A stretch of DNA of 64,000 bases from positions 14,389,001-14,453,000 of the forward strand of contig NC_092673.1 of the NCBI RefSeq assembly GCF_964355755.1, written 5' to 3'. Within the stretch, counting starts at the first letter, position 1. The number at the start of each line of letters is the position of its first letter. A program made the translations under genes and the position numbers. Shown one piece after another: positions 52,101-56,879 of the stretch. The notes under the pieces are model-generated. The model was not told the DNA's origin. It ran no database searches and saw only the letters and a program-made list of their open reading frames with translations. The DNA comes from Antedon mediterranea (lineage: Eukaryota; Echinodermata; Crinoidea; Comatulida; Antedonidae).

Positions 52101-55100
52101 ATGACAATTTCTATATTTTATAGTTATATTTGTAGAGTTCCTATTGAGAAGTCAGTTAGTAGTGAGTGTTGAAGCCATGTAATCGTGAGTGTAGAAAGCA
52201 ACCGTTCACTATGTGAATCCCATGTGATCTAATTTAAGTACGGTATTAATATTATTAGTAATATATTTCATAACAAAATTTGTATTATATCTAAATTTTC
52301 ATACCTTGTATCTGAACCACCAGATAGTGTAGTTCTTAAATAAGCACCTTCTATAGGCGTCGATGTTGTAGGAAGGTGAGTAGAAACTGTTGTCCTGGTC
52401 GGCCCAGAAGCTGTGCTATGTCTTTCTGCATGACTAAACGTAAAACAATAAAGCACAGTTAGCAGGGTGACTTAGCACTTTTTTTGTGCACTTTGTGACA
52501 AAAGCACCAAATTTGGCACAAACCTTCTTTAGGGTATATCTAACAATCCTAGAAGGGGTGCCCAAAAATCGGAACAATTTAACGACGTCATTTGGACCAC
52601 GCCCTTTTTTTAGTATTACGTAATTAGGTGAAAACTTAAATCTTTGTATATACATACCAAGTTTGGTATCAAATAAAAACTCATGACATGTACATTGCAA
52701 TACACACATAAAAAATATATGATTTCTCTTCAGACGGAATATAGGTCAAATAATGTAATTTTCTGTCATATTGAAGGGTATTTCAATCAAAACGTGCCAA
52801 TATTGTGCTATGTTATGAACATTGTAGTTATAAGAACAACAACATTCATTTTTGTAATAGTACTAATATATATTTATCCTGTACCAGTTACTTTCCTTAA
52901 CATAATATAAGGAACCACTGAAAAAAGTATATAAAACATATACTGTATCAAACTTGGCTCAATAACCACTGGACTAGTAAACCGACAAAAGACCATTTGA
53001 CTGACAATTATGGCGTTAGCATCCATAACAATACATGGAGGTGATTATCAACTTTACTTTTATGAAATTATTTATCTGGAAACAAACGCTTATAATGGTA
53101 CAGAGTTGCTAGATGACGAACAAGTTCCACGGCATGGGTAACAAGACCAGTGCACTGCTGAACGACACTTGCAGTTCCCTGAGCAAAAAGGCAACTTTTT
53201 GCAGCCACACTTTAGCAATTCCCTACATGCCTTGGATGCTTCAGGTAGTATTGTCCAGACTGGTGTCCATGTACTGCCGGTTTTAGTCCAACCAAAGTCT
53301 TCTGGTGATGGAGCATTCTGATGTGGCTGTAGACTGGTGGTCCAAATGCTTGCTTGGTATATGGATCTGTTGGAATGCTGTAAAAGTGCATCCTGCAATA
53401 AACAATTTAAAGATTGGTGTTACCTTTTAATGAAAGAAAAACATGAATCTGATAATAAATTATTAAACGACAATTGACAATTATATGGAAGCTCCCCTTA
53501 CCTGTGTAGGAGGAATGTTGTCCATTGTCCGTGCTTTTCTTGAAAAAAGATCTTGTCTTAGCTTAGTAACACTTCTTAAAGTACTTGTCTTGTCGTATAG
53601 ATGACATGTAAACTCCTCTAGCAACTGGAATTGAGATGAGTTGACTCCTAGAGATTTGAAAGGGTGATGTGCCATGAAAAGAAAGGCTTCTGTGACTGCT
53701 GGAAATGAGTTCCACGTCTCCCATGCGGAGTGTTTTGATTTTCCGAAGAACTGGGATGTAGTATCGGACCCAGTAAATGCATGAAAAACTGGCAGCCCTC
53801 TTGACTTATCCTCTCCTAGGTTATGGCAGATGGTATTTATATTAAAATATTGGAAGTGCTTACGCATGCCAAATACGACCCAGATACACGTACCAAGATA
53901 ACAGGCTATTAGATTGCAGAAAATACCAACCAGGATAACAACGACATCAGTATCAACTGTATGCACCAAAATAACCCTGCTACCTTTCTTTAAGGCATCA
54001 TCAATGCGAATGCACATCCTGGAGTCGGCCTCTTCATGGTCGCAGATTGGTTGAGTAGATGTCAACATACAACAGACTCGCCTACAGGACATATATCAAG
54101 AATTACTTACTAATTTAATATGCCTTTTTAATTAATTATTGGTATGAAACTGTATAAGTAAATTAATCGTTTGGTTACAAACAAAATAAATTAGTATGTA
54201 TCATAATAAAACTTACCTGATGTAATGTAAACTTCAGAGTAATCATGGGTAGACACCTTTGTAGTTAAAAAGTTAAATAACTCCTCTTTATTTACTGGAT
54301 CTTTCAGAAAGTCTGGAAAATTCCCTGGAATCTTTGTTTGTCCCCCAACTTTCCTCTTGACCCCTTTTCCTCTTTTTTCTCCTGTAGACTGCTTAAGACT
54401 ATCTGTTCTGTAAGTGTCCCACACTATATCAATTCTGTTACTATTCTGCAGCTGCTGTCTGGTCCACGGTAGAAAGACCTGTCATACAAATGATACAAGA
54501 ATAACGATCCGCATATAGAAGTGACCAATTATGTGGTGGTTAAACAATAGATACAATCCTGAATGCAAAGAAATGTACTCACCTTATCACCGTAGTCATC
54601 AAATGTAAATGCATGGTTGCTGGAAAGGGCATGGACAATAGCAGCTCTGTCAAACACCTTTACGTCAAAATATGTAGGAGGTTCAGGCTGGCCTTCAGTC
54701 TCCAAATGCTGTAGCAACTCAGACTTCTTAGTTGGTAGTCGAAGCTTGCCATTTACTGCCAAAGAGGGTTGCCATGGCTGGTTTTCATGCATGAAGAAGT
54801 CTTCCAAATCTCCATCACTAGATTGACTTGCAATATACAGTCGACTGAATAGGCTGCAGTCACTTTTTAAACTCTTAACTTGTTGCTTTGTTTTGGACAC
54901 TGATTTTGACCATGGTGTGTTGAACAATGGCAGCTTATTCTGTTTGATGGCTTGTTGAATTGCAACACTTCTGTCGAGAATAACTTCCTTGAAATATTGT
55001 TGGTACAGGGTAGTACCTACATCCTGAATTGTACGAACTGTCACTACTGCACTTTCATTGCCACAATCTCGAGCATCCAAGACCATAAGTTCTGAACAAT

Positions 55101-56879
55101 TATCGAGGAATGGGTTGCCTGCATTGCTCAGGGAACTGAAAGTGCCGTTCAGCAGGTCTTTTTTGCACCGGTCTTTGTTACCCATGCCGTGGAACTTGTT
55201 CGTCATCTAGCAACTCTGTACCATTATAAGTGTTTGTTTCCAGATAAATAATTTCATAAAAGTAAAGTTGATAATCACCTCCATGTATTGTTATGGATGC
55301 TAACGCCATAATTGTCAGTCAAATGGTCTTTTGTCTGTTTACTTAGTCCAGTGATTATTGAGCCAAGTTTGATACAGTATATGTTTTATATACTTTTTTT
55401 CAGTGGTTCCTAATATTATGTTAAAGGAAAGTAACTGATACAGGATAAATATATATTAGTACTGTAGTTCTATTACAAAAATGAATGTTGTTGTTCTTAT
55501 AACTACAATGTTCATAACATAGCCCAATATTGGCGCGTTTTGATTGAAATCCCCTTCAATATGACAGAAAATTACATTATTTGACCTATATATTCCGTCT
55601 GAAGAGAAATCATATATTTGTTATGTGTGTATTGCAATGTACATGTCATGAGTTTTAATTTGATACCAAACTTGGTATGTATATACGAAGATTTAAGTTT
55701 TCACCTAATTACATAATACTAAAAAAAGGGCGTGGTCCAAATGACGTCGTTAAATTGTTCCGATTTTTGGGCACCCCTTCTAGGATTGTTAGATATACCC
55801 TAAAGAAGGTTTGTGCCAAATTTGGTGCTTTTTTTACAAAATGCACAATCTTCATAAAAAATGGAAGTTAGCAACCCTGCTAAGTGTGAAGAGGTATAGA
55901 ATAAGGGAAAACAATTTTACAATTTAAATTTAAAAAAAAATTAATATACCAAATCATCAAATTAATACTGTACTAAAATTGACACTGGCTAGCCCTAGTA
56001 ATGTAACAACAGAGGAGGTACCAAAGTTAATTCCCACTCTAGCTAGGAAAATAATTATTTTACCAGCCCTGTTTGTGAAGGCCCTCACTACCAAACAGAT
56101 GGTATTGTAATCAATTATCTACTTAAAATTCCAAGTCAAATGGTTAGGAGGTAAACCTTTTCGTCATGGGTGGCCAATTTTTTTATTAAAAAAAAATGGT
56201 AGGACCTGTGCTGTGTGTATGTTCAGCTAGGTAACCGGATCTATGATTTTAATTAGGCATAGACTTAGCGGCTAGCTATTCTATGCTAGATTATATATAA
56301 CACTAACACTAAAAGTATACTTTCTGTCTCAAAATACCTGCTGTACTACGAAAGGTGTGTTGTATTACTCTATCTAGCTAGGCCTATCAATCCGCCTGTT
56401 TTCGAACGATTCATCTAATTGCAAAGGTAGGCAGGCCTAGTAGTAGTAGTAGTATAGGCTATATAGTAGTTAGTATAGATAGGCTAGGCCTAGCCTGGAG
56501 GTCTAACCTAACCTATTTATTATTATTAGTATTATACTAAATTCAAAATAATTAGGCTATCTATAACTCTGTGGAACTATAGTACCAATAATAATAATTA
56601 TCATTACTTACTAGTATTGCCTATTTTACTAAATAAAAGGCCCTAACTAATCCCTAGAGCCGATGGACACTGTACTAAAGAGAGAAGTTACCTGTCAAGC
56701 AAAAAATTTGCAACATCAGAATTACTTGCTAAATTATTTGCTTCTTTTACTACGGACCATCTCTGAAATGTATCGAAGTTTAGCAAAATTCTGCGAGCAT
56801 TTGACGCTACATTACGTGTAAGTTTGCGCCTTTTCTTTTCCGATGATCTCAATCCAGAATAAGGGCCTCGTTTACCCAT
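46160..56879 (-). CDS. Transposase-like protein, 734 aa, 13 exons, intact
   Basis: Exons in order: 56692-56879, 52305-52433, 51996-52079, 51765-51818, 51505-51609, 51084-51399, 50588-50870, 48042-48278, 47840-47916, 47592-47696, 47085-47299, 46673-46837, 46160-46406. They total 2205 nt, with GT-AG at every junction and no internal stop. The basic N-terminus (MGKRGPYSG..KKRRK) may bind DNA; residues about 105-240 are Ser-rich and acidic. A Cys pair near CTRKSCSS and the CTNGHL segment suggest a small zinc-binding fold. Residues 387-458 hold the candidate RNase H-like core: GDGRMDSPGH (Asp388/Asp392) and VTDAHLQI (Asp456), followed by KHSHDIWHAAK (exon 9). A helical C-terminal half includes GWMTKGHPAHDALRKIV and YAAKRFHYSPP. 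It resembles transposase-derived proteins scattered in marine invertebrates and fish. The third catalytic acid was not located, and activity is not shown. Confidence 0.8.
48323..50375. mobile_element. 2.05-kb TA-flanked non-autonomous element in transposase intron 7
   Basis: The ends are CAGTACCGGACAGAATTATT.. and its inverted counterpart (one mismatch in the first 23 bp), with TA on both sides (48321-48322, 50376-50377). The TIR style and TA duplication fit Tc1/mariner. The first and last ~200 bp are crowded with GCGTTGAA/TTCAACGC words, and a further run lies near 49480-49600. No transposase frame is present. It lies wholly between exons 7 (50588-50870) and 8 (48042-48278), so the host transposase frame is not disrupted. 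Confidence 0.85.
52454..55888 (-). mobile_element. 3.4-kb long-TIR DNA element carrying a PIN-like/Cys-rich gene
   Basis: The left arm 52454-53195 and right arm 55114-55888 are inverted copies, about 740-775 bp long, with small indels. The tips are CACAGTTAGCAGGG and CCCTGCTAAGTGTG, flanked by AAG on both sides (52451-52453, 55889-55891). CAC..GTG tips with a 3-bp duplication recall CACTA/EnSpm, but the encoded protein (53090-55206) is not a CACTA transposase. The element sits in intron 1 of the TTAA-element transposase, only about 20 bp from the exon 2 acceptor, in the same orientation. Confidence 0.85.
53090..55206 (-). pseudogene. PIN/FEN-like nuclease-type protein with C-terminal Cys-rich motif (one frameshift)
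   Basis: Four exons: 54583-55206, 54217-54478, 53502-54081, 53390-53392 back to 53090 (last exon 53090-53392), all with GT-AG. About 585 residues would result. Exon 1 includes NPFLDNCSELMVLDARDC, LPLFNTPWSK and a LFSRLYIASQSSDGDLEDFF block. Exon 2 begins VFLPWTRQQLQ. Exon 3 holds CDHEEADSRM and HTVDTDVVVIL, acidic motifs arranged as in PIN/FEN1-type nucleases, then LPVFHAFTGSDTTSQFFGK, resembling their helix-turn-helix segment, and DNIPPTQ. Exon 4 ends in a Cys cluster (CGCKKLPFCSGNCKC). Joined in frame, exon 3 starts GESVVC and then meets TGA at 54062-54064, about 20 codons before HEEAD. One net frameshift is needed, so this copy looks inactivated unless an unseen splice rescues it. Nuclease assignment is inference. 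Confidence 0.75.

Follow-up and report, generated by a model that had tools for sequence, protein, structure and literature searches.

A transposon copy of 3423 bp occupies positions 52460..55882 of the window, the 64,000 nt stretch of Antedon mediterranea DNA that was analysed here, and very probably represents a non-autonomous offshoot of a cut-and-paste DNA transposon resembling AcademX. Its single gene is a 5′-truncated remnant and specifies just the back half of a larger protein. An earlier note on this DNA had raised the prospect of an undescribed transposon class; that proposal is not supported, as full-length relatives in the same genome fuse a DUF6589-like region to the same nuclease, as expected for AcademX. 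The element belongs instead to a new non-autonomous AcademX-like family, the likeness to Academ being judged by description, and this family is real, recently mobile and of a known transposon kind.

The element was delimited using a genome-wide census and pairing of its tips (TAGCAGGGT...ACCCTGCTA), and is bordered by target-site duplications (TSDs) of AGT at 52457..52459 on the left and 55883..55885 on the right. Inverted repeats and alignment of copies define a left arm (52460..53186, plus strand, A tip TAGCAGGGTGACTTAGCAC...) that includes the 3′ end of exon 4. The right arm (55124..55882, minus strand, B tip TAGCAGGGTTGCTAACTTCC...) provides, at its inner end, the first 27 codons of exon 1, start codon included. 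The two ends of the element are alike for the first nine bases and then differ (A tip TAGCAGGGTAACTTAGCAC, B tip TAGCAGGGTTGCTAACTTCC), and past these differing tips lie ~700 bp of inverted arm. The complete element with long terminal inverted repeats (TIRs) described in the earlier note is thus real in respect of its arms, which are ~730–760 bp long with inverted pairs (I1–I7) at 91–99 % identity. The CACA..TGTG tips and AAG duplication assigned to it are wrong. When the outer ends of the copies were aligned, homology on the left began at TAGCAGGGT, six bases inside the edge first drawn, and the preceding CACAGT was found in the window copy only. Those tips and that duplication were ruled out as unrelated flanking sequence, unique to the window, that has the look of a terminus by chance.

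A tip-pattern search of the 354-Mb genome gave 41 matches to the A tip, 37 to the B tip and none to the reversed control, and the family comprises ~40 copies. Exact 3-bp TSDs, which the earlier note had suggested looking for in other copies, flank 33 of the 35 A–B tip pairs, where ~1 in 64 would be expected for each pair. Together with the tip counts, this indicates that the window element is not a chance arrangement. The TSD triplets vary from copy to copy, TAN being the commonest, and as the flanks are unrelated the copies represent insertions and not segmental duplications. The mean pairwise difference among copies is ~2 %, which shows the spread to be recent, with roughly half of the other copies covered by partial sequence only in this analysis. 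The tip pairs are 2.9–5.3 kb long, and each one examined in the tip search encloses the whole gene or a piece of it, in keeping with the proposed association of gene and TIRs; no small gene-free derivatives were found among the paired tips of the TAGCAGGGT family. The longest pair (C5:23542710-23548055, 5.3 kb) exceeds the others by ~2 kb and probably contains a nested insertion, and two pairs without a 3-bp duplication (C10:8198946-8202280 and C10:11647521-11650896) are possibly recombinants between copies. In six copies, including L066 (C8:6549730-6553422) and L067 (C2:54204-57986), the gene runs in the opposite orientation with respect to the A and B tips, the outcome expected of recombination between the long inverted arms, and these six retain part of the additional 5′ coding sequence.

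The gene lies on the minus strand and has four exons separated by GT-AG introns. Exon 1 (54583..55206) shows homology, from about codon 28 onwards, to the central part of the full-length protein and has the first acidic motif (VFD) at its end; exon 2 (54218..54478) includes a VWDTY...RGK motif (XPG-N-like); exon 3 (53502..54074), for which the exact 5′ acceptor is uncertain, carries the HEEAD, DTD and FTGSDTTS motifs (XPG-I-like); and exon 4 (53090..53392) encodes the Cys-rich C-terminus and the stop. At the exon 2/3 junction of the window copy the first AG acceptor leads to a stop, and an acceptor five bases further on preserves the frame. The motifs and Cys-rich end reported earlier for the only gene were all recovered, and there is, as had also been stated, no transposase inside the window element. 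From residue ~28 onwards, the window protein aligns to the back half of proteins that other loci in the genome encode. The front half of the parental gene is gone, and an inverted copy of the 3′ end of the gene adjoins the cut. In the alignment (pairs I2 and I7), the first 27 codons, with the start codon among them (55124..55206, minus strand, MTNKFHGMGNK...), are antisense to the coding sequence of the gene's own last exon (~53113–53186), because they lie within the right arm. Hence, the start of the open reading frame (ORF) is a by-product of the arm.

The acidic motifs of the protein occur in the order found in FEN1/XPG (D, VWD, E-A-D, D-T-D, G-x-D), and by inspection D, D, E-A-D, D-x-D and G-x-D are retained in all families covering those positions and are preserved in the window copy. 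XPG is the nuclease of AcademX. However, the resemblance to structure-specific nucleases that had been remarked on earlier, while it fits this order, received no support from profile comparison or modelling. An hhalign comparison of the protein profile with archaeal FEN1 scored 17.0 (P 0.24) where column shuffles reach 21.9, and an AlphaFold model of exon 3 from single-sequence input was of very low confidence (pLDDT 36.6). Pfam scans of the spliced window protein and of single exons gave no meaningful match, a PDB sequence search with the full-length relatives gave none, and nor did searches of phage and viral contigs for the protein. Going by motif order only, a FEN/PIN identity for the back half of the protein is plausible.

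In the full-length relatives from this genome, the same nuclease-like half is preceded by a putative transposase region resembling DUF6589, and the elements have TAG...CTA tips and 3-bp duplications. L106 (C10:9693922-9700035, 6114 bp, tips TAGTG..., TSD ATT) is inserted in an array of ~87-bp satellite units (with L108–L110, C10:9691600-9702500), and the uninterrupted target in the adjacent satellite, identical at 47/47 bases, provides an exact example of the empty site that the earlier note had proposed to look for. L111 (C11:6752412-6759427, 7016 bp, tips TAGTCTGGG, TSD TTT) has arms composed of tandem repeats and an intact ORF of 1555 aa; this 7-kb type is present in two copies, the second of which (C10:12118940-12126221, 7282 bp) has no 3-bp TSD. 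The DUF6589 matches in L106 and L111, the closest relatives, are weak and below the Pfam cut-off. Three other intact ORFs, C3:23175763 (1396 aa), C5:29671448 and C8:13751495 (each 1247 aa), match DUF6589 above the cut-off and hold the nuclease-like region in the same frame. The genome yielded no full-length copy with TAGCAGGGT tips that is intact. Within the window's own family, the degraded copies L169 and L170 retain the B tip and more of the 5′ coding sequence, part of which is also kept by copies of the L066/L067 type, and the window form is thus a truncated descendant. An independent long-armed family has the same architecture: in L171:1-2801 (C7:11174500-11177300), the C-terminal half of an XPG-like gene is present in each of two inverted arms of 1.2 kb, between which lies the N-terminal nuclease part, and similar inverted pairing was seen at at least seven further loci, which argues that the arm-building process recurs in this genome.

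Several sets of copies share frameshifts or stops while differing in their flanks and TSDs. One comprises C2:2376675, C3:17173759 and C11:2774853, of which the first two are 100.00 % identical over 2052 compared bases and the third was assigned by matching size and hit pattern. In others, C8:9859887 groups with C10:5431776 (99.75 % identical), C5:1052590 with C5:23542710 (99.5 %), C1:8490379 with C6:3204967, and C1:2731667 with C9:24592494. Hence, copies with broken frames were inserted separately and must have been moved in trans by an enzyme from elsewhere. Pooled dN/dS among the copies is 0.76, exon divergence equals that of introns and arms, and neither the singleton nor the shared changes depart significantly from the neutral expectation that the non-coding sites provide (p 0.08 and 0.53). 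Shared broken frames and neutral protein evolution together indicate that the fragment is not an enzyme the copies require.

These observations bear directly on a reading that goes back to the earlier note, in which the FEN-like, Cys-rich protein would itself be the whole enzyme that mobilises a new class of transposon. Though the gene or part of it is present in all examined tip pairs, no small gene-free derivative was seen and the acidic motifs of the window copy are intact, copies that share broken frames have moved, the protein evolves neutrally, its N-terminus is an antisense artefact, and the corresponding protein of relatives with matching tips and TSDs has a long additional front half. 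We therefore regard this explanation, in which a truncated remnant would be the mobiliser, as very unlikely. The fragment might alternatively be cargo retained under selection, for example because it represses in trans or assists repair to the advantage of its own copies. The window family, L063 and L171 all keep the nuclease half and have lost the transposase half, and a few copies, the window copy included, are free of stops and frameshifts under a permissive splice model. However, the majority of the copies sampled contain frameshifts or stops and no purifying selection on the protein fragment was detected among the copies, making selected cargo improbable. That the nuclease half alone acts in trans as a helper or repressor interacting with full-length Academ enzymes, such that its retention is not accidental, is likewise quite improbable.

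A CACTA/EnSpm element with CACA..TGTG tips, as the flank was first read, carries almost no probability. TSDs of 3 bp do occur in CACTA elements too, but here the TSD is AGT, the CACA bases are in no other copy, and the terminal sequence is TAGCAGGGT, not of the CACTA/G type. The alignment of copies refutes this identity, and no conventional CACTA-type transposase, the presence of which had been named as evidence against the earlier proposal, is involved.

Descent from an AcademX-like transposon would account for the window family as follows. The parental protein would have had a putative DDE-type transposase (DUF6589-like) at the front and a FEN/XPG-like nuclease with a Cys-rich tail at the back, with catalytic roles predicted for both. 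During repair of an element, sequence from the 3′ end of the gene may have been copied, inverted, into the opposite arm, a step through which the transposase half would have been lost and the nuclease half would have come to lie between long arms. This derivative would then have multiplied to ~40 copies, with a 3-bp duplication produced at every insertion, mobilised by what was presumably a full-length enzyme acting in trans and now either lost from the assembly or unrecognised in it, and the coding sequence that was retained would be a passenger.

A candidate new transposon class is thereby removed, and the origin of what looks like a lone nuclease gene between near-perfect arms is explained by a two-part Academ gene losing its front while a copy of its 3′ end is placed in the opposite arm. 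For studying nuclease-bearing Academ transposons this genome should be useful, as it combines intact-looking full-length ORFs (1247–1555 aa) with defective derivatives and an exact empty site.

Comparison with known systems places the family as follows. The window protein shares the acidic-motif order of FEN1/XPG nucleases; its profile similarity to archaeal FEN1 is not significant. Proteins with DUF6589 (PF20231), a domain with no annotated function, match the front half of the full-length relatives, above the cut-off in the three nuclease-bearing ORFs, and the domain is absent from the window element. Within the Academ superfamily, the AcademX lineage (Kapitonov and Jurka 2010, Kojima 2020, both as cited in PMC10045372) generates TSDs of 3 or 4 bp and AcademH TSDs of 9 or 10 bp, the lengths being tied to the nuclease or helicase that is encoded (PMC10045372). 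The 3-bp TSDs of the window family (33/35 copies), of L106 (ATT) and of L111 (TTT) are of the AcademX length, and the genome relatives likewise encode a single large protein, transposase-like in its front part and nuclease-like in its back part; it is this combination of TSD length and two-part protein that fits AcademX. The window copy differs in that the transposase half is gone, the arms include gene sequence and the element is non-autonomous. As the Academ DDE transposase domain is missing from it, with only a DUF6589-like region in its relatives, it is classed by descent as a non-autonomous derivative and not as an autonomous member. Though the transposase of Galileo (P superfamily) belongs to a superfamily unrelated to that of the window element, Galileo and foldback-like DNA transposons likewise have long arms formed from internal sequence in the TIRs or from tandem repeats, and in Galileo internal sequence has been recruited into the TIRs and defective copies have arisen from gap repair (PMC4168063).
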